Source: a virus. Taken from it: a DNA stretch of 26,162 nt. The position numbers and the translations under genes are program-made. The DNA lies in the IMG/VR virus record IMGVR_UViG_3300042507_005969, positions 1-26,162 of that record. One strand, given 5' to 3'. Positions 15,226-25,996 of this stretch are shown in pieces (the first letter of the stretch is position 1; every line of letters starts with the position of its first letter). The notes beneath the pieces were generated by a model that did not search any database, was not told the DNA's origin, and saw only the letters and a list, made by a program, of their open reading frames with translations.

Positions 15226-15257
15226 AAAAGGGCTTGGTTTTTACCAAGCCTTTTTTT
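15226..15257 (+). terminator. Rho-independent terminator closing the structural module
   Basis: GGCTTGGT at 15231-15238 pairs with ACCAAGCC at 15243-15250 around a TTTT loop, with an A-run before and seven T residues after, so it could work in both directions. It separates late structural genes from replication genes. Confidence 0.9.
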
Positions 15258-15275: not shown

Positions 15276-16562
15276 ATGCATGCTATTATTGAAACAAAAC
15301 AACAATTAGATAAACTACAAGAACATTGTACAGACAGCTGTTTTGTTCAGTTGATTTGTGGAAATGACAATTTTCATCCTAAATTTACTAATGTAGTAGC
15401 GTTGTACTACCAGTGTCTAAACAGTAAAGGTCACATTATTCCTATAAACCACTCAGAAACATTCAATTTAAATTGGTCTGATGTGTTAGACTTTTTAACA
15501 AAACACAAAATTGTTTACTTGTTAGATAAAAAGTTCCACGATTATTTTTTTCCTGAAACAATAAAATCAACAGACATTCAATTTCAAATTTTAAATCAAG
15601 AAAACAAACAATTTAAACCATCTGAATGTGATACACCAATTCATATTAGTTTTTACAGAGAACATTATTTTAGAAACAACATAAACGCAATTATTCCTGT
15701 TGTTAAACACCTAGAAAAATGGAACCATGTTTTTGAAAAAATTAAAAAATACATGAATTATAGACCATTAACTTGGTTTGACAACGAATTTACAACAACA
15801 TTTAAAAGAATAGAACAAGAAGGAATAAAAATTACTCCGTCTAAATTCAATCATCACTTTGAACCTACATTTGAAGAATACTCTATTAGTAAAAATAAAA
15901 TACATTCTTTGTACAATCTTTACAATTTAACTACAAGACCATCAAACACATTTAACAATGTGAATTTCGCCGCACTTCCCAAAGAAAATGGCGCGAGATC
16001 ATCATTTATTCCTACCAATGATTATTTTATTGAATACGACTTCACAGCTTACCATCCTAGTCTTATCGCTAGTCTTTGTGGCATTAAATTTAGCGATGCT
16101 CCTTACTCAGATTTATCAGAGATACTTGGTGTATCAGAGACTGAGGCAAAGGAAATTACGTTTAAAAACCTCTACGGAGGCGTTAGAGAAGAATTTAAAG
16201 AAAAAACGTTTTTTAAAGAAGTAAATCAACTAATTAAAAAAATGTGGATGATTTACAATCAAGAACAACGAATAAAATTAGCAACAGGTCGAATTCTTTT
16301 AAAATCTAATGACTTAAATCCAACTAAAATATTTAATTATTACATTCAAAGCTTAGAAACTAAGAGCAACGTAGAATTAGTAAGTAAAGTATTAGATTTA
16401 CTAGAACAAAAGAAAAGTAAAATTGTACTTTACACTTACGACTCAATTCTTTTAGACTTTAGTAAAGAAGACGGAATAGAATTAGTTTTACAAGTAAAAA
16501 ATTTATTAGAATCGACAGGACATACAGTTAAAATGCAAAAAGGAACGAATTATGGTTTATAA
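15276..16562 (+). CDS. Compact divergent DNA polymerase, family A-like palm, exonuclease-like domain apparently inactive
   Basis: Start placed at ATG 15276 (428 residues), since an upstream in-frame start would fall within the terminator stem. The C-terminal half carries three polymerase motifs: motif A YDFTAYHPSLIASL with D255, motif B AKEITFKNLYGG with K292, F296 and YG300-301, and motif C YTYDSILLDF with D389. The K-x3-F-x3-YG spacing is that of Pol I-type O helix, whereas D-F-x3-x-PS-x-I looks like family B motif A, and YDS replaces the HDE of family A. The N-terminus aligns in shape with the 3'-5' exonuclease domain (FVQLICGN, then a VVALYY strand and HIIPINHSE), but the D-x-E acids are replaced by L26 and C28. 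It heads the replication operon (gp32-like, UvsX, nuclease, helicase). Polymerase identity is strong; family and exonuclease loss are inference. Confidence 0.82.
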   Translation: MHAIIETKQQLDKLQEHCTDSCFVQLICGNDNFHPKFTNVVALYYQCLNSKGHIIPINHSETFNLNWSDVLDFLTKHKIVYLLDKKFHDYFFPETIKSTDIQFQILNQENKQFKPSECDTPIHISFYREHYFRNNINAIIPVVKHLEKWNHVFEKIKKYMNYRPLTWFDNEFTTTFKRIEQEGIKITPSKFNHHFEPTFEEYSISKNKIHSLYNLYNLTTRPSNTFNNVNFAALPKENGARSSFIPTNDYFIEYDFTAYHPSLIASLCGIKFSDAPYSDLSEILGVSETEAKEITFKNLYGGVREEFKEKTFFKEVNQLIKKMWMIYNQEQRIKLATGRILLKSNDLNPTKIFNYYIQSLETKSNVELVSKVLDLLEQKKSKIVLYTYDSILLDFSKEDGIELVLQVKNLLESTGHTVKMQKGTNYGL

Positions 16563-16992
16563 TGACTTTGACATATTTATAGGTAGTATAGACTTTAGTT
16601 CAATGAAAAATAAGCTACTTTGTTCGTTTGCGGCCAATAATAGGCTACTAGATACTATAGCTAGTATTACTAGTAGATACACTATTATGTATGATAAGAT
16701 GTTTGTGTTGGAGAGTCCTCAAACAACAGAATACTTAATTACTTACAACATACACACAGAAAATGGAGTAAACGAAATTCCAGAAAATACAATTTTAGTA
16801 CACAGAAAAAAGGAAAGTAATACTTTATATACCATAAATGCTTTAAATTGTTTGATTAAACAGTTAAATAATGGTATATTAGATAATAGTTACATGGTAA
16901 ATTGGCCTGACTATAAAAACAGTGTATTGTTGACTCAAGGTCCTGATTTAAGAATCATAGAAACAAAAATCTACAAAATCATTAACCTATAA
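16552..16992 (+). CDS. Unrecognised protein, 146 aa, overlapping the polymerase gene
   Basis: The ATG at 16552 lies 11 bases inside the end of the polymerase gene, a coupling that implies co-translation and perhaps a joint complex. The protein has no signal peptide, membrane helix or known catalytic motif. Its middle reads LLDTIASITSRYTIMYDKMFVLESPQTTEYLITYNI, suggesting an alpha-beta fold with a beta strand rich C-terminal half (LVHRKKESNTLYTINALNCLI). The pattern of a helix followed by YxxMYDKMF and two strands resembles small proteins often seen beside replication genes in T4-type phages of aquatic hosts, but I know no assigned function. Candidate roles are a polymerase accessory subunit or a regulator; neither is shown by sequence. 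Confidence 0.65.
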   Translation: MVYNDFDIFIGSIDFSSMKNKLLCSFAANNRLLDTIASITSRYTIMYDKMFVLESPQTTEYLITYNIHTENGVNEIPENTILVHRKKESNTLYTINALNCLIKQLNNGILDNSYMVNWPDYKNSVLLTQGPDLRIIETKIYKIINL

Positions 16993-17042: not shown

Positions 17043-17894
17043 ATGGATATTAATTCAATTAAAAATCGCTTGAATTCCCTTCAAAATAAGAAGGGTGGCT
17101 CTCAAAACAAAGAAGAAAGAGCTAAAAATTTCTGGAAGCCCTCAGTAGGCAAACAAATTATTCGTGTTGTTCCTTCAAAGTTCGACAAGTCAAATCCTTT
17201 TAAAGAGGTTTATTTTCATTATGGTGTAGCAAATCGTTCTATGATTGCTTTGACTAACTTTGGTGAAAAAGATCCTATTGTTGAATTTGCAAGTCAACTT
17301 CGCAAGTCAACAGAAAAAGAAAATTGGCAGTTGGCTAAAAAAATTGAACCTAAAATGAGGGTTTTTGTTCCTGTCATTGTTAGGGGCGAAGAAGAAAAAG
17401 GTGTTCGTTTGTGGGAATTTGGTAAAGAAACCTACATGGAACTTCTGTCAATGGTAGCTGATGAAGACATTGGAGACTTTTCTGACATTTATGAAGGTCG
17501 TGATTTGACCGTAGAAACTGTTGGTCCTGAAGTTACAGGCACTAAGTACAATAAGTCAACTGTTCGTCCTCGTACTAAAATTACTCCTTTGAGTGAAAAT
17601 GCTGCTCAAGCTAAAGAATGGCTTCAAAACCAACCTGAAATTTTGAGTTTGTATAAAAAATACGAATACGATGAAATGAAAGGCATTTTGTTAACTTGGT
17701 TGAACCCTGAAACAGAAGAAGTAGCTGAAGAAACAGCAGAAGAAACTGTAGTAGAAGAACCAGTAGTAACCAATTATTCTGCTCCTACTCCTGCTAAGAA
17801 AAAATCATCATTTGATGAAGATGAATTTGATGCTTTATTTGCTGAAAAAAAATCATCATCTAAATTTGATGAAGACGATGACATGCCCTTCTAA
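17043..17894 (+). CDS. Single-stranded DNA-binding protein (gp32-like)
   Basis: The 283-residue product resembles T4 gp32 (301 residues), which coats ssDNA and coordinates replication, recombination and repair. The N-terminal basic helix MDINSIKNRLNSLQNKK matches the gp32 cooperativity domain. The core carries NFWKPSVGKQIIRVVPSKFDKSNPFKEVYFHYG and the RVFVPVIVRGEEEKGVRLWEFGK strand pair of the gp32 OB-fold, then TKYNKSTVRPRTKITPL. The C-terminus (from about residue 225) is strongly acidic and ends in DEDDDMPF, similar to the interaction tail of bacterial SSB. The Cys-rich zinc motif of T4 gp32 is missing: the stretch after FHYG holds no cysteine. Together with UvsX, gp41-like helicase and polymerase nearby, the identity is firm. 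Confidence 0.92.
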   Translation: MDINSIKNRLNSLQNKKGGSQNKEERAKNFWKPSVGKQIIRVVPSKFDKSNPFKEVYFHYGVANRSMIALTNFGEKDPIVEFASQLRKSTEKENWQLAKKIEPKMRVFVPVIVRGEEEKGVRLWEFGKETYMELLSMVADEDIGDFSDIYEGRDLTVETVGPEVTGTKYNKSTVRPRTKITPLSENAAQAKEWLQNQPEILSLYKKYEYDEMKGILLTWLNPETEEVAEETAEETVVEEPVVTNYSAPTPAKKKSSFDEDEFDALFAEKKSSSKFDEDDDMPF

Positions 17895-17905
17895 TTAATT
17901 GAAAA

Positions 17906-18988
17906 ATGGCTAAAAAGAAACTAACAGAAGCTGTATCACAAGCAGTTAAGGGAAATTTTGACCTTGAGTCTTTTAAGAAGTCAAAGTATTTAAGTAACAC
18001 AAGCGTTACTTTTAAACCTCAAAAGTGGATTCCACTTAGTGCAGCTTTCCAAGATGTTCTTTCATTGCCTGGTATTCCTATGGGCCACATAACTTTGTTA
18101 CGTGGCCATAGTGATACCGGTAAAACAACAGCTTTGATTGAAGCAGCAGTAAGTGCTCAGAAGATGGGAATATTGCCTGTGTTTATCATTACAGAAATGA
18201 AATGGAACTGGGATCATGCTCGACAAATGGGATTTCAAATTGAAGACGTTGTTGATGAAAATACAGGAGAAGTTATAGATTATAACGGATTCTTTATTTA
18301 TAATGACAGAAGCACATTAAATACCATTGAAGACGTAGCTGGTTTTATTGCTGACTTATTAGACGAACAAGCAAAAGGTAGATTGCCTTATGATTTACTG
18401 TTTTTGTGGGACTCAATTGGCAGTGTTCCAAGTAAAATGAGTGTAGAAGCAAATAAAAACAATCCAATGTGGAATGCAGGTGCTATGAGCCAACAGTTTG
18501 GCAATTTTATCAACCAAAAGTTGATTATGAGTAGAAAATCAAACACTGCTTACACAAATAGTTTAGTTGCAATCAACAAAGTATGGGTTAGTCCAGCTGA
18601 AACACCTATGAGTCAGCCCAAAATGCGAAATAAAGGAGGAGACACTATGTTTTTTGACTCAAGTTTAGTTATTACTTTTGGTAATGTTACTAATAGTGGA
18701 ACAAGTAAACTAAAAGCTACAAAAGACGGTAAAGATGTTGAGTTTGCTAAACGAACTAAGATTTCTTGTGATAAAAATCACGTTAGTGGAGTTACTACTA
18801 AAGGAACAACGGTTATTACTGTACACGGCTTTATTGATGATGATCCAAAAGCACTAGACAGTTACAAGAAAGATCACAAATCAGAATGGATGACTATTTT
18901 AGGCGACGGAGAATTTAAAGTAATCGAAGATTTGAGTGATTGGGACGAAAGTAAAAACAGTGTTTTAGCTCTAAACGATGAAGAATAA
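17906..18988 (+). CDS. uvsX: UvsX-like RecA-family recombinase
   Basis: A 360-residue ATP-dependent strand exchange protein (T4 UvsX has 391). The Walker A motif GHSDTGKT is at residues 67-74 and the Walker B aspartate D169 lies in LLFLWDSIGSV. The flanking IPMGHITLLRGHSDTGKTT and the FIITEMKWNWDHARQMGF and INKVWVSPAETPMSQPKMRNKGGDTMFFDSS segments are RecA/UvsX-typical (the latter includes the L2 region and the ATPase coupling strand). It drives repair, recombination-dependent replication and packaging substrate formation. It begins 11 bases after the gp32-like gene and overlaps the next gene by one base, so gp32, UvsX and the nuclease form one operon. An acidic C-terminus (ENDEE-like LALNDEE) resembles that of RecA. 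Confidence 0.92.
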   Translation: MAKKKLTEAVSQAVKGNFDLESFKKSKYLSNTSVTFKPQKWIPLSAAFQDVLSLPGIPMGHITLLRGHSDTGKTTALIEAAVSAQKMGILPVFIITEMKWNWDHARQMGFQIEDVVDENTGEVIDYNGFFIYNDRSTLNTIEDVAGFIADLLDEQAKGRLPYDLLFLWDSIGSVPSKMSVEANKNNPMWNAGAMSQQFGNFINQKLIMSRKSNTAYTNSLVAINKVWVSPAETPMSQPKMRNKGGDTMFFDSSLVITFGNVTNSGTSKLKATKDGKDVEFAKRTKISCDKNHVSGVTTKGTTVITVHGFIDDDPKALDSYKKDHKSEWMTILGDGEFKVIEDLSDWDESKNSVLALNDEE

Positions 18989-20016
18989 TGGACCCAGATT
19001 TTCAAGCGATAATTGATAAACTTAGTAAAGCAAGACAGGCTGAAAAGCCTGTTTTGCAACCTAAGATACTATTAGTAGATGCAATGAATACCTTTTTAAG
19101 GTCATTTGCTATAATAAACCACATAAATCCTAAAGGAAACCACATAGGAGGTCTTACTGGTTTTTTAAAATCAGTAGGTTATGCAATTAAACACATAAAT
19201 CCTACTAGGGTTGTAATTGTATTTGAAGGAGAAGGATCAACCTTAAATAAGAAAAACTTGTTTCCTGACTATAAAGGAAACAGGAAACTTAAACGCATAA
19301 CCAATTTTGATGGTTTTGGTTCTCAAGAAGAAGAATCAGAATCTATTGAAAATCAACTATTAAGACTTGTTGAATACTTACAATGTCTTCCTGTAGATTT
19401 GGCTGTTGTTGATCGAGTAGAGGCCGACGATACTATTGCACATTTAAGCAACGAATTTCAAAAAACTAGCGATGTAGTTATTATGTCTTCTGATCAAGAT
19501 TTCTTACAGCTAGTAAATGATAAAGTTACTGTTTACAGTCCAACTAAGAAAAAGTTTTACAATCCTGCTAAAGTAAAAGAAGAATATGGTTTGCCGCCTC
19601 AAAATTATCTTCAAATGAAAATTTTACTAGGAGACAGTGCTGATAATATTCCTGGAGTTCCTAAATTGGGTCCTAAAAAGCTTCTAAAAAACTTTCCAGA
19701 ATTACAAGAAGAACAAACTATTGTGCTTAAAGAAATTTTAGAAAAAAGCAAATCAACTAAAGGCACAATGTATGAAGCAGTTGATATGTTTAATCATCAA
19801 CTAAAAATCAACGAAAAACTAATGGATCTTCACAATCCTAATTTGTCTGAAATGATGAAATTAGAAATACAAAATGTAATAGATTGTCCTAAGTCAACTA
19901 TGGATAAAAGTAAGTTTTTGACTATGTATCAACAAGACTTATTGGGTAATTCAATTCCCAATGTAGAAGGATGGCTAATAAATGTATTTACTCATTTATT
20001 GTCAAGCAAAAAGTAA
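18988..20016 (+). CDS. 5'-3' exonuclease / flap endonuclease (T4 Rnh- or T5 D15-type)
   Basis: A 342-residue nuclease of the FEN family, which removes RNA primers and flaps from lagging-strand fragments. D31 in ILLVDAMNTF, the FEGEGSTLNKKNLFPDYKGNRK region that contacts the flap, E and D in VEADDTIAHL, D in MSSDQDFLQLV, and the H3TH region GDSADNIPGVPKLGPKKLLKNF form the usual active site and helix-hairpin-helix order. It is a bit longer than T4 Rnh (305 residues). The TAATG at 18986-18990 couples it to uvsX. No polymerase domain is attached, so it would supply the 5' nuclease activity that the compact polymerase at 15276-16562 lacks. The function is secure; the exact substrate preference is not visible. 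Confidence 0.9.
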   Translation: MDPDFQAIIDKLSKARQAEKPVLQPKILLVDAMNTFLRSFAIINHINPKGNHIGGLTGFLKSVGYAIKHINPTRVVIVFEGEGSTLNKKNLFPDYKGNRKLKRITNFDGFGSQEEESESIENQLLRLVEYLQCLPVDLAVVDRVEADDTIAHLSNEFQKTSDVVIMSSDQDFLQLVNDKVTVYSPTKKKFYNPAKVKEEYGLPPQNYLQMKILLGDSADNIPGVPKLGPKKLLKNFPELQEEQTIVLKEILEKSKSTKGTMYEAVDMFNHQLKINEKLMDLHNPNLSEMMKLEIQNVIDCPKSTMDKSKFLTMYQQDLLGNSIPNVEGWLINVFTHLLSSKK

Positions 20017-20039: not shown

Positions 20040-21416
20040 ATGGTATCATTTAATAAACTGTCACAGTACGGTCTTCCGTTTCAATTAAAAGTAATTAATC
20101 AACTCTTAACAAATAAAGAGTTTCTTCTAGACATTAGAGATAGTATTCAAGAAGAATACTTTGACAATCAAAGTTTACAGTGGATAGTAACTAGGACTTT
20201 GAAATACTTTGACCAGTATCACACAAATCCTACATTAGAAGCACTTCAAATTGAAGTTAAAAAACTAGAAAATGATGTATTAAAAACAGCTGTTATTGAA
20301 CAGTTGAGAGAATCTTACAGAATAGAAAACAATGATGCTGAATATGTAAGACAAGAATTCAGTGGATTTTGTAAAAATCAACAATTGAAAAAAGCATTGT
20401 TAACTTCTGTTGATTTACTTCAATCAGGAATGTATGATGACATTAGAATTTTGATTGACAGTGCTTTAAAAGCAGGAATGGAAAAAAACATTGGTCATGA
20501 ATATTCTAAAGACGTTGAATCAAGATACAGACCAGATGCTAGAGAAATAGTTCCTACTCCTTGGGACGACATAAATAAACTCTTAATGGGAGGTTTAGGA
20601 GGAGGAGACTTAGGTTTAGTATTTGGCAATCCTGGTGGAGGTAAAAGTTGGATGATGGTTGCTTTAGCAGGTCATGCTGTTAAAATGGGCTTTAACGTTG
20701 TTTATTATACTTTAGAATTAGGAGAAGTTTATGTAGGAAAAAGATTTGACGCTTTCTTTGCTGATGAACCTGTAAATCAAATTCATCTTCACAGAAAAAA
20801 AGTAGAACAAGAAATTAATAAATTAGAAGGTACTTTGGTTGTAAAAGAATTTAGTATGGGTAAAGCAACAGTTCAAACTCTTGAAGCTCACATTCAACAA
20901 TTGCGAAACATGGACCTAAAACCAGACCTAATCATTATTGATTATATCGATCTTTTGCGGTCTCCTAAGCGATCTTACGACAGAAAAGACGAAATTGACG
21001 ACGTTTATGTAGCTATAAAAGGCCTAGCGCGAGATTTGAATACTCCTATTTGGAGTGTAAGTCAAGTAAATAGAGCAGGTGCACAAGATGACATTATTCA
21101 AGGCGACAAAGCAGCAGGAAGTTACGATAAAATCATGATTTCAGATTTTTGTTTAAGCTTGAGCCGTAAAAAAGAAGACAAAGTAAATGGCACTGGAAGA
21201 CTTCACGTAATGAAAAATCGTTATGGAATGGATGGTTTAACTTACAATGCAAAAGTTGACACTCATACTGGTCACATTGAATTAGATGACAACAATGAAG
21301 GCATAGAAATTAGTCCTTACAAGCAAATAAATATTACAAAACCTGCTGAAAATTGGGACAATTCTGACTTAACAAAACTCAGAAATAAGTTTTCAGATCT
21401 TGCAGATTTACTGTAA
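20040..21416 (+). CDS. DnaB-like replicative helicase (gp41-like)
   Basis: The start is set at ATG 20040 (458 residues), because the AGTTATG leader shared with gp32-like and queC precedes it; a longer frame from 19971 would overlap the previous gene. The protein unwinds DNA at the fork as a hexamer. The N-terminal 150 residues are helical, as in DnaB/gp41, with SQYGLPFQLKVINQLLTN at the start. The RecA-type motor has Walker A GNPGGGKS with K202, Walker B IIIDYIDLL with D301, the sensor SQVNRAG, and the AGSYDKIMISDFCLSLSRK loop. Compared with T4 gp41 (475 residues) it is nearly full length. It closes the replication cluster and is followed after a short spacer by the ribonucleotide reductase. 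Confidence 0.9.
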   Translation: MVSFNKLSQYGLPFQLKVINQLLTNKEFLLDIRDSIQEEYFDNQSLQWIVTRTLKYFDQYHTNPTLEALQIEVKKLENDVLKTAVIEQLRESYRIENNDAEYVRQEFSGFCKNQQLKKALLTSVDLLQSGMYDDIRILIDSALKAGMEKNIGHEYSKDVESRYRPDAREIVPTPWDDINKLLMGGLGGGDLGLVFGNPGGGKSWMMVALAGHAVKMGFNVVYYTLELGEVYVGKRFDAFFADEPVNQIHLHRKKVEQEINKLEGTLVVKEFSMGKATVQTLEAHIQQLRNMDLKPDLIIIDYIDLLRSPKRSYDRKDEIDDVYVAIKGLARDLNTPIWSVSQVNRAGAQDDIIQGDKAAGSYDKIMISDFCLSLSRKKEDKVNGTGRLHVMKNRYGMDGLTYNAKVDTHTGHIELDDNNEGIEISPYKQINITKPAENWDNSDLTKLRNKFSDLADLL

Positions 21417-21451: not shown

Positions 21452-23302
21452 ATGAACACATCACAAAGTATATTGTCGGATATTACGACGTACATGAAGT
21501 ACGCTCGTCACATTCCAGAAAAAGCTCGTCGCGAGACCTGGGAAGAAATTGTAACACGAAATAAAGAAATGCATATTAGCAGATTTCCTCAATTAGAAGA
21601 AGAAATCAATGAAGTATACAAAATGGTATACGATAAAAAAATTCTTCCTTCAATGAGAAGTTTACAATTTGCTGGAAAGCCTGCTGACATCAACAATGCT
21701 CGAATGTTTAACTGTAGTTTCTTGCCTGTAGATGATTTTAGGTCATTTTCAGAAGCTATGTTTTTACTTTTGAGTGGCTGTGGAGTTGGTTTTAGTGTAC
21801 AAAACCACCATGTAGAACAGTTGCCTGAAATTAAAATTCCAACTCGTGAAAAACGTTATTTAATTAATGACAGTATTGAAGGTTGGGCTGATGCAGTTCA
21901 CATGTTAATGAAAGCTTACTTGAAAGGCGGTGCTCGTCCTCGTTTTGACTTTAGAGACATTAGAGCTAAAGGAGAACAATTAGTAACAGCAGGTGGAAAA
22001 GCACCAGGACCTGAACCTTTGAAAGAAGTATTGTTTCAAGTACAAAAAATACTTGACAGGAAACAAAATGGAGAAAAATTAACTTCATTAGAATGTCATG
22101 ATATTCTTTGTCATTTAGCTGATGCTGTATTGTCTGGAGGCATTCGTAGAGCAGCTTTGATTAGTTTGTTTGATTTCAACGATGAAGACATGTTGACTTG
22201 TAAGTTTGGTAACTGGTGGGAAAATAATCCTCAACGTGGACGAGCTAACAACTCAGCTGTAATTCTTCGCCATAAAATTACTGAAGACGAATTTATGAGT
22301 CTTTGGGAAAAAGTTGAAGCATCAAATGCAGGTGAACCTGGATTTTTATTTAGCAATGACAAAGACTATGGAACTAATCCATGTGCTGAAATTGCTTTGA
22401 GGCCTTATCAATTCTGTAATTTGTGTGAAATTAACGCTACTGATGTTGAAAGTCAAGAAGATTTCAATGCTAGAGCTAAAGCAGCTGCGTTTATTGGTAC
22501 ATTACAAGCTAGTTACACTGATTTCCATTATTTAAGAGACATTTGGAAAAAAACAACTGAAAAAGATGCTTTGTTAGGAGTTGGAATTACTGGTATAGCT
22601 AGTGGAAAACTAGACAAAATCAACTTGAAACAAGGTGCTAAAGCAGCTAAAGAAGAAAATGCTCGTGTAGCCGCATTAATTGGAATCAACAAAGCAGCTC
22701 GTGTAACTACAGTTAAACCATCTGGAACAAGTTCACTTGTATTAGGCTGTTCAAGTGGAATTCATGCTTGGCACGATAATTACTATATTCGTCGAATTAG
22801 GGTAGGTAAAAATGAGTCAATTTATACTTACTTGAATCTTTATCATTCTGAACTAGTAGAGGATGACATTTTCAAACCTACTCAACAAGCAGTAATTTCA
22901 GTTCCTCAATTAGCCCCAGAAGGTGCTAAAACTAGAGCTGAGTCTACATTTGATTTGTTGGAAAGAACTAAAAGATTCAATGTTGAGTGGGTAAGAGCAG
23001 GTCATCGTAAAGGCGAAAACTACAATAACGTGTCTTGTACAATCAACATCAAACAAGGTGAATGGAAAGAAGTAGGCCAATGGATGTGGAACAACAGAGA
23101 ACACTATTCAGCTATGTCTTGTTTACCGGAAGACTTAGGAAGTTACAAGCAAGCTCCTTTCGAGTCAATTACAGAAGAACAATACAATGAAATGAGTAAA
23201 ACATTACATAATATTGATCTTAGAAATGTAGTAGAGTTAACTGATAATACTACATTGGTTGATAACGTAGCTTGCGCTGGAGGCGCGTGTGAAATAGTAT
23301 AA
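21452..23302 (+). CDS. nrdJ: Class II (adenosylcobalamin-dependent) monomeric ribonucleotide reductase
   Basis: A 616-residue enzyme that reduces ribonucleotides to deoxyribonucleotides for phage DNA synthesis, using coenzyme B12 to make the thiyl radical and needing no oxygen or small subunit. It resembles the monomeric Lactobacillus leichmannii enzyme: MFNCSFLP with the first redox cysteine, SGCGVGFSVQ, the NPCAEIALRPYQFCNLCEINAT active site with the radical cysteine and its partner, and VKPSGTSSLVLGCSSGIHA. The C-terminus CAGGACEIV gives a Cys-x4-Cys pair (608, 613) just like the CEGGAC tail of the Lactobacillus enzyme that reloads the active site. At 616 residues it is shorter than the 739 of that enzyme. 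No ATP-cone is visible. It follows the replication genes directly and ends before a terminator. Confidence 0.9.
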   Translation: MNTSQSILSDITTYMKYARHIPEKARRETWEEIVTRNKEMHISRFPQLEEEINEVYKMVYDKKILPSMRSLQFAGKPADINNARMFNCSFLPVDDFRSFSEAMFLLLSGCGVGFSVQNHHVEQLPEIKIPTREKRYLINDSIEGWADAVHMLMKAYLKGGARPRFDFRDIRAKGEQLVTAGGKAPGPEPLKEVLFQVQKILDRKQNGEKLTSLECHDILCHLADAVLSGGIRRAALISLFDFNDEDMLTCKFGNWWENNPQRGRANNSAVILRHKITEDEFMSLWEKVEASNAGEPGFLFSNDKDYGTNPCAEIALRPYQFCNLCEINATDVESQEDFNARAKAAAFIGTLQASYTDFHYLRDIWKKTTEKDALLGVGITGIASGKLDKINLKQGAKAAKEENARVAALIGINKAARVTTVKPSGTSSLVLGCSSGIHAWHDNYYIRRIRVGKNESIYTYLNLYHSELVEDDIFKPTQQAVISVPQLAPEGAKTRAESTFDLLERTKRFNVEWVRAGHRKGENYNNVSCTINIKQGEWKEVGQWMWNNREHYSAMSCLPEDLGSYKQAPFESITEEQYNEMSKTLHNIDLRNVVELTDNTTLVDNVACAGGACEIV

Positions 23303-23355: not shown

Positions 23356-24132
23356 ATGTTAATAAGTCATGAAGTTTCTCTAGCAATGCTAGAAAAAAGT
23401 TTTACATTTAATGATTATGATTATTGTTTGCCTACTTTTTTACACCATAAACAATATTGGGATCATTTTGTTGAAGCAAGAAAACAAAATCGTTTCATCA
23501 TAATGGACAATGGATTATTTGAAGGTGAAATAGTAGATGAAAAATCTCTATTACACGCCTACAACACAATTAAACCAGATGCATTTATTACACCAGACAG
23601 TTGGAATGATGCTGATGCAACTTGGGATAATTATGTAAAATGGAAAAATAAAGTAGATCCTAGTAAAATTATGGTTGTAATTCAAGCTCAAACAATGTTT
23701 GAAGCAGAAGATTTATATGAAAAGCTAGTAAAAGATGGAGTAAAATACATTGGTTTCAATCACTTAGGTCAATTTTACAACGATTTTAGCTGTCATGAAC
23801 ATCCTGAAACCCAAAAGACACTAGGTCGCATTGAATTTATTAGTTTCTTAAAAGAAACAAATAGACTAAGTAAAGACGTTCATCATCATTTGTTAGGATG
23901 TAATCAAGCAGAAGAATTTAAGTATTATCCAAGTGTTTATTTTCCTGAAATTAAAACATTAGACACATCAAACCCAGTTACTTTAGCTTTTGAAGGAATT
24001 GACTATGAATTACACAGAAATATTTTAACTAAACCAAAAATTAAAGTAGAAGATATATTTAAATCAGAAGACAAAGAAAAAATAAATTTAGCAGAAAAAA
24101 ACATCAACACATTTAAAAAATTAATTTCATAA
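23356..24132 (+). CDS. dpdA: TGT-fold DNA guanine transglycosylase, DpdA-like
   Basis: A 258-residue protein that fits a shortened tRNA-guanine transglycosylase barrel. FIIMDNGLFEG (D51) sits where TGT has DSGGFQ with its general-base Asp. ITPDS (D81) sits where the base-binding Asp lies. VVIQAQ (Q110) matches GIVQG, and GFNHLGQF the GYAVGGL turn. HHLLGCNQAEEF followed by EIKTLDTSNP (D203) matches the MGVGKPDDIVGAVERG ... MFDCVLPTR end, with D203 at the nucleophile position. The Cys cluster that binds zinc in bacterial TGT is absent (only C24, C146 and C182). DpdA proteins of phages use this fold to exchange guanine in DNA for preQ0-type bases. The presence of queC 1.9 kb downstream supports a DNA rather than tRNA role. 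Alternative: an unrelated TIM-barrel enzyme. Confidence 0.72.
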   Translation: MLISHEVSLAMLEKSFTFNDYDYCLPTFLHHKQYWDHFVEARKQNRFIIMDNGLFEGEIVDEKSLLHAYNTIKPDAFITPDSWNDADATWDNYVKWKNKVDPSKIMVVIQAQTMFEAEDLYEKLVKDGVKYIGFNHLGQFYNDFSCHEHPETQKTLGRIEFISFLKETNRLSKDVHHHLLGCNQAEEFKYYPSVYFPEIKTLDTSNPVTLAFEGIDYELHRNILTKPKIKVEDIFKSEDKEKINLAEKNINTFKKLIS

Positions 24133-25336: not shown

Positions 25337-25996
25337 ATGCCTAATAAAGAATATATGAAAGAGTATAGGAGAAATAAAAATCCTAAACTCAAAGAAAAAG
25401 AAGAACTTGCACAACAAGAAAAAAAACGTTGTACAAAATGTTTAGAAATAAAACCTTTTAATTCTTTCACTCCTCAAAAAGCAGGATTTATGGGATTAAA
25501 ATCTCAATGTAAGGAGTGTGATTGTTTATATGATAAACATTTCCAATCTAAAACCAACTTTAGATCAGAACGAGATAAAACAGATAAAGCTAAACAATAT
25601 AGAAAAAATTATATAGCTGAAAACTTAGACTGGTGGAGAAAATATGAAAGAGAATATAGATATAATCGTAGAAGAGAAGATATGTTTTTTAAAATAAAAG
25701 GAAACCTATCAGGACGACTATCTGATTTAATAAATAAAAGAAATTTATCTACTAATACTTTTGAACTTATAGGATGTGATAGAGAAACTTTTTTACAATA
25801 TATTGAAAAACAATTTGTAGAAGGAATGACATGGGAAAATTATGGTTTAAAAGGATGGCATATAGATCACATAATTCCTTTATCTTCTTTTGATTTAACT
25901 AACGAAGATGAAGTAAAAAAAGCATGTTATTATACTAATTTACAACCTCTTTGGTGGGAAGATAATTTAAAAAAAGGAAATAAACTTGGAAATTAA
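25337..25996 (+). CDS. HNH homing endonuclease with zinc-finger N-terminus
   Basis: A 219-residue nuclease. The N-terminal region has two Cys pairs (C32-C35 and C58-C61), a zinc-binding module shared by many phage HNH proteins, followed by a strongly basic stretch rich in Arg, Lys and Tyr. The C-terminal HNH core begins GWHIDHIIPL (H175, D177, H178), followed by TNLQPLW (N201) and a final DNLKKGNK (N210), so all expected metal- and phosphate-binding positions seem intact. It cuts one or both strands of target DNA lacking the element. It lies between a queC-like 5' fragment (25251-25277) and the intact queC (26021), which suggests insertion into or next to that gene. The gene is highly AT- and Lys-rich compared with conserved neighbours. 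Confidence 0.9.
   Translation: MPNKEYMKEYRRNKNPKLKEKEELAQQEKKRCTKCLEIKPFNSFTPQKAGFMGLKSQCKECDCLYDKHFQSKTNFRSERDKTDKAKQYRKNYIAENLDWWRKYEREYRYNRRREDMFFKIKGNLSGRLSDLINKRNLSTNTFELIGCDRETFLQYIEKQFVEGMTWENYGLKGWHIDHIIPLSSFDLTNEDEVKKACYYTNLQPLWWEDNLKKGNKLGN

Follow-up and report, generated by a model that had tools for sequence, protein, structure and literature searches.

The gene that opens the replication cluster of this phage DNA encodes a compact polymerase. An earlier note had taken the protein for a hybrid of polymerase families A and B, standing in for the family B enzyme of T4-type phages within an otherwise T4-like replisome. We analyzed the whole stretch of 26,162 nucleotides (the window), which is a fragment of a phage genome. 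Translation of the window confirmed the polymerase ORF (Table 1). The ATG at 15276 is favored as its start, as the relatives mostly open there with MHAIIET or MYYIVET; a longer ORF beginning with a TTG at 15234 disagrees with the starts of the relatives and is disfavored. The gene lies directly past a terminator-like hairpin.

Table 1. Positions of the polymerase gene, its motifs and neighboring features in the window.
Feature	Position	Strand	Basis or remark
Terminator-like hairpin, divides structural genes from replication cluster	15226..15255	+	
divPolA1, compact family A DNA polymerase, 428 aa	15276..16562	+	translation, homology, profile, model; PMC11348598
Exonuclease-like N-terminal domain, about residues 1-160, catalytic acids absent	15276..15755	+	
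L26-I27-C28, strand where D-x-E of exonuclease motif I would lie	15351..15359	+	
Truncated thumb	15756..15920	+	E180 to R221 = 41 residues vs 127 in Klenow (E541-R668)
Motif A DFTAYHPSLI, residues 255-264, catalytic D255	16038..16067	+	
H260 at steric-gate position of Klenow Glu710	16053-16055	+	alignments
Motif B K292-EIT-F296-KNL-Y300-G301, family A spacing, Klenow R754 arginine missing	16149..16178	+	
Motif C Y388-D389-S390, catalytic D389	16437..16445	+	
gp002-like protein, 146 aa, function unassigned, companion of divPolA1	16552..16992	+	overlaps polymerase gene by 11 nt
gp32-type single-stranded DNA binding protein (SSB)	17043..17894	+	PF08804, phrog_1192
UvsX/RecA-like recombinase	17906..18988	+	phrog_97
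5'-3' exonuclease, FEN / Pol I N-terminal type	18988..20016	+	PF02739, PF01367, phrog_107
DnaB-type replicative helicase	20040..21416	+	PF03796, phrog_19; start probably inside ORF from 19971

Searched alone, the window polymerase obtained no Pfam score, including no match to the family B profile PF00136, and gave only weak colinear matches to the Klenow fragment of E. coli Pol I. A profile built from nine relatives matches Klenow (E=1e-5), and hhalign of the polymerase family against canonical PolA returned 96.8%. The protein gp001 of Flavobacterium phage vB_FspM_immuto is 32.8% identical to the window protein across residues 1-425 (99% of the length, E=3e-59), and itself exceeds the cut-off of Pfam DNA_pol_A (PF00476; 43.9 bits vs 34.3). 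An AlphaFold2 model computed from 40 sequences has a mean pLDDT of 93.7, and its best matches among solved structures are the apicoplast polymerase and Klenow, with an alignment that spans both the exonuclease and the polymerase domains. The comparison with Pol I that the earlier note had proposed thus gave a TM score of 0.73-0.75 over nearly the whole chain; fold and motif order are held in common with Klenow at about 15% sequence identity. Family B polymerases gave no profile or fold match, and the spacing of motif B is that of family A rather than KxxxNSxYG. The profile, the Pfam score of the homologue, the predicted fold and the motif spacing agree in placing the window polymerase in family A, and the hybrid interpretation has to be abandoned.

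The immuto protein belongs to a group that was named divPolA1 by Yutin et al. 2024 (Virol J 21:200, PMC11348598), who described it in 14 phages, immuto included. According to that study, divPolA1 has an active-looking palm, a truncated thumb and replacements of all three exonuclease aspartates, and is encoded in the same phage as a regular DNAP of family A, B or C. In the literature searched, the name occurs only in that paper and its preprint, and no biochemical evidence on any divPolA1 was found. The window protein displays full-length homology, the palm residues, a dead exonuclease, a truncated thumb and downstream replication genes, and judged by its sequence it is a new member of a group already published in 2024. 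It has the size of immuto gp001, with which it shares these features, as well as a second polymerase in related genomes, and the two differ by sequence divergence only. The barbavirus divPolA2 is likewise a second divergent family A polymerase, found beside PolB, but is described as having a different N-terminal domain, no homologous thumb and a variable gene neighborhood (PMC11348598).

The motif residues and the distances of 37 and 97 residues between motifs given in the earlier note are exact in the translation, and the corresponding distances in E. coli Pol I, 53 and 124, are longer, as the note had said. In an alignment of 40 sequences, with homologues 38-76% identical to the window protein, D255, Y259, H260, K292, F296, Y300, Q358, Y388 and D389 are invariant. 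Since these nine residues are kept without exception, the motifs are not a product of chance; D255, D389, K292, F296, Y300 and Q358 stay invariant down to about 30% identity. The likeness of motif A to family B enzymes of the T4 gp43 type (YxPSxI) is superficial. Position 261 is proline in 19 of the 40 sequences, and position 262 is serine in seven and the family A arginine in 31, so that the family B appearance is, as far as the alignment indicates, a peculiarity of this sub-branch. The replacement of HDE by YDS in motif C was read correctly as to the residues, but is no sign of a hybrid, as HDS occurs in ordinary phage family A polymerases, namely those of Roseobacter phage CRP-3 and Pelagibacter phage HTVC033P.

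We aligned 17 divPolA1 proteins with eight canonical PolA enzymes and found three substitutions in all 17: the equivalent of Glu710 is His, that of Arg754 is lost and that of His881 is Tyr. All eight canonical enzymes keep Glu710, Arg754 and His881. Relative to Klenow, the window polymerase has E710H, H881Y and E883S in addition to the loss of R754. The CRP-3 and HTVC033P enzymes, which tblastn gave as the nearest ordinary relatives (E=2e-4 for CRP-3), share with divPolA1 the LYGG that follows motif B and the Ser next to the Asp of motif C, but are larger (680-705 aa) and retain the steric-gate Glu, Arg754, His881 and the motif I acids (DLET/DVET). Glu710 of E. coli Pol I is a steric gate against ribonucleotides (PMC13228545). 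Loss of this glutamate together with the R754 equivalent could imply a weak or altered activity. The steric-gate His, the loss of the R754 equivalent and the change of His881 to Tyr go beyond the main text of PMC11348598, as do the constant gp002-like companion, the purifying selection on the dead domain and the many more members described below.

The earlier note was right in describing the polymerase as compact and its exonuclease-like domain as dead. L26-I27-C28 sits in the strand of Klenow D355-T-E357, and the motif I acids (D-x-E, DEDD proofreading) are absent from divPolA1 both in the 40-sequence alignment and in that of 17 proteins with canonical PolA. Exonuclease motifs II and III were judged from secondary structure and PMC11348598, as sequence alignment is unreliable there: MAFFT placed the invariant D100 on D424, whereas secondary structure suggests that it is the structural Asp of an FDT motif instead. 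The domain has 12 invariant positions in the 40 sequences and a dN/dS of about 0.05-0.15, which is similar to that of the palm (0.05-0.13 for the whole divPolA1 gene). Owing to these invariant positions and the palm-like dN/dS, the dead domain is probably kept because it serves structure, DNA binding or partner binding, and is no remnant in decay. The stretch corresponding to the thumb is much shorter than in Klenow (Table 1).

As the window is a 26 kb fragment, what follows on second polymerases rests on its relatives. A separate full-size polymerase is encoded besides divPolA1 in 12 of 12 long records, a count that includes divergent records and several that may be incomplete. In the nearest long relatives, G001 (176 kb, divPolA1 76% identical) and G002 (180 kb, 70%), the second enzyme is a family B polymerase. 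That of G001 has 859 aa, a Pfam exonuclease domain and the exonuclease motifs DIE, N-x3-FFD and YxxxD. In seven further contigs (49-136 kb) and in immuto (gp199) it is a PolA that has DTET and a length of about 770 aa; Microcystis phage Mel-JY01 has PolB, and LR756508 (484 kb) has pieces of PolB and a PolC-like protein. Because all 12 long records contain a separate full-size polymerase, divPolA1 is very probably an accessory to a main polymerase in the phage of the window, and its being the sole phage polymerase is ruled out for the relatives. This second replicative polymerase is what the earlier note had named as counting against its view, and the picture of a T4-like phage replicating with an odd enzyme in place of the family B polymerase is to be corrected, as this enzyme is very probably additional. 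The suggestion that proofreading is supplied elsewhere agrees with the relatives, whose main polymerases have intact exonuclease motifs where inspected. Supply in trans by a separate DEDD exonuclease is disfavored, since the main polymerase has an exonuclease domain of its own; the candidate examined, the immuto gp090 'exonuclease' encoded beside DnaG, is PD-(D/E)XK-like and not DEDD.

In order to describe the distribution of divPolA1 we collected 32 close relatives, and 534 candidate relatives from IMG/VR, of which the best 80 were kept. A search of MAG contigs yielded only four matches, two of them labeled flavobacterial. With more than 500 IMG/VR candidates, as compared with 14 genomes in PMC11348598, divPolA1 is widespread. 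The gene order divPolA1-gp002-SSB-UvsX-FEN-DnaB is found across 111 loci as far as the contigs reach. Among loci with enough room, gp002 is present in 101/101, SSB in 85/85, UvsX in 57/58, FEN in 40/40 and DnaB in 33/33, counts in which near-identical contigs are not collapsed; UvsX was not detected at the divergent locus L037. divPolA1 thus keeps to the replication cluster while the main polymerase varies among relatives. At L036 (Mel-JY01) and L037 (a 484 kb uncultured phage), divPolA1 and the replication cluster are annotated as hypothetical or left unannotated, and neither phage is among the 14 genomes of PMC11348598.

The gp002-like gene thus follows the polymerase in all 101 of these loci. 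Its product and divPolA1 share the same six records among 50,697 phage records, in which a seventh divPolA1 match is a weak match to canonical PolA. It overlaps the end of the polymerase gene by 11 nt in 25 loci, and in LR756508 one other gene lies between the two. The protein carries a conserved HRKKESNTLYTINALN stretch, and a model of it reached a moderate confidence (pLDDT 84). Neither Pfam nor the PDB gave a meaningful match for it (best E=0.13 in the fold search), and three of 45 members matched an SSB family weakly in PHROG (E=2e-4). We regard the gp002-like protein as a candidate dedicated partner of the polymerase that is worth study.

Alongside the family membership, residue losses, linkage and second polymerases computed here, our best guess as to the activity, partner binding and role of divPolA1 is that it accompanies the main polymerase as an active, exonuclease-free, short-patch gap-filler, a reading to which we give about even weight. 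It would fill short gaps left by primer removal and recombination. The FEN-type 5'-3' exonuclease next door, which is part of the same chain in E. coli Pol I and a separate gene in this phage, would pair with it like a 'split Pol I' in separate subunits, so that this exonuclease and SSB would do jobs that Pol I domains do together, with UvsX also collaborating. The gp002-like protein would be the dedicated partner, perhaps holding the polymerase on DNA and possibly replacing the missing thumb. The genes for SSB and UvsX are as tightly linked to divPolA1 as that for the 5'-3' exonuclease, and for this reason gene linkage does not tell whether the task is Okazaki maturation, recombination or lesion bypass. 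As a counterpoint, the host's own Pol I could mature the Okazaki fragments. An extended version of the gap-filling role, which we consider quite unlikely in full, holds that divPolA1 and a gp002-like thumb substitute form a two-subunit polymerase, in which the His gate would lead to unusual sugar selection at RNA-primed or ribonucleotide ends, and that this retuned split Pol I is kept whatever the main polymerase.

The same linkage can be read as a sign that divPolA1 is itself a core replisome polymerase, for example extending UvsX-made D-loops or making one strand, with the 'regular' polymerase having the lesser part: divPolA1 is always found in the replication cluster, while the second polymerase sits among unrelated genes and may be of family A, B or C. 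However, the absence of proofreading and the 41-residue thumb fit an enzyme of low processivity, as does its shortened fingers region, and the second polymerases are of full size and, in those inspected, have their exonuclease motifs intact, so that a core role seems unlikely. A translesion or mutagenic function, in which divPolA1 would synthesize past lesions or modified bases of the phage DNA, we consider improbable; a constant place beside the genes for helicase, SSB and 5'-3' exonuclease points rather to routine replication, and there is no sign of a damage response, although proofreading is lost, residues of the active site involved in nucleotide selection are replaced, and genes for deazaguanine DNA modification occur in some of these phages, with a DpdA-like gene in the window.

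The steric-gate substitution raises the further idea that divPolA1, with relaxed sugar selection, uses ribonucleotides as a primer maker or RNA polymerase. The position of Glu710, the ribonucleotide gate of E. coli Pol I (PMC13228545), is His in 40/40 and 17/17 divPolA1 sequences and Glu in all eight canonical PolA enzymes aligned, but motif B retains its tyrosine and phenylalanine, a 2'-OH may be blocked by His as well, and the motifs are of the DNA polymerase type, unlike those of T7-type RNA polymerases. A DnaG-like primase is moreover present in the most complete genomes, which makes a substitute for primase unlikely: it is encoded in G001, G002 and immuto, and PF13155 matches were found in LR756508 and, short of the curated cut-off, in Mel-JY01, though not in the shorter contigs G005 and G006, both possibly incomplete. 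Ribonucleotide use is therefore very improbable. Hardly credible is a catalytically dead, structural replisome subunit: loss of the exonuclease and of the R754 equivalent would fit, but both metal-binding aspartates, K292, F296, Y300 and Q358 are invariant to about 30% identity, which would be needless in a dead enzyme. As to what a second polymerase that lacks proofreading does for a phage, the companion gene and the His at the steric gate, both of them constant, offer two specific handles for tests in a cultured phage.

Several other genes of the window, all on the plus strand, deserve mention. The ORF at 1048-1782 has an I-HmuI-like NUMOD domain and is probably a homing endonuclease inserted between tail genes, and an HNH-endonuclease-like ORF with a weak Pfam match is located at 25337-25996. 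The product of 23356-24132 is 30% identical to the annotated DpdA DNA-guanine transglycosylase of immuto, which hints at deazaguanine DNA modification. Following the helicase gene, 21452-23302 encodes a ribonucleotide reductase large chain of 616 aa that matches the B12-dependent (class II) insertion domain, and at this position immuto has annotated NrdA and NrdF chains instead.
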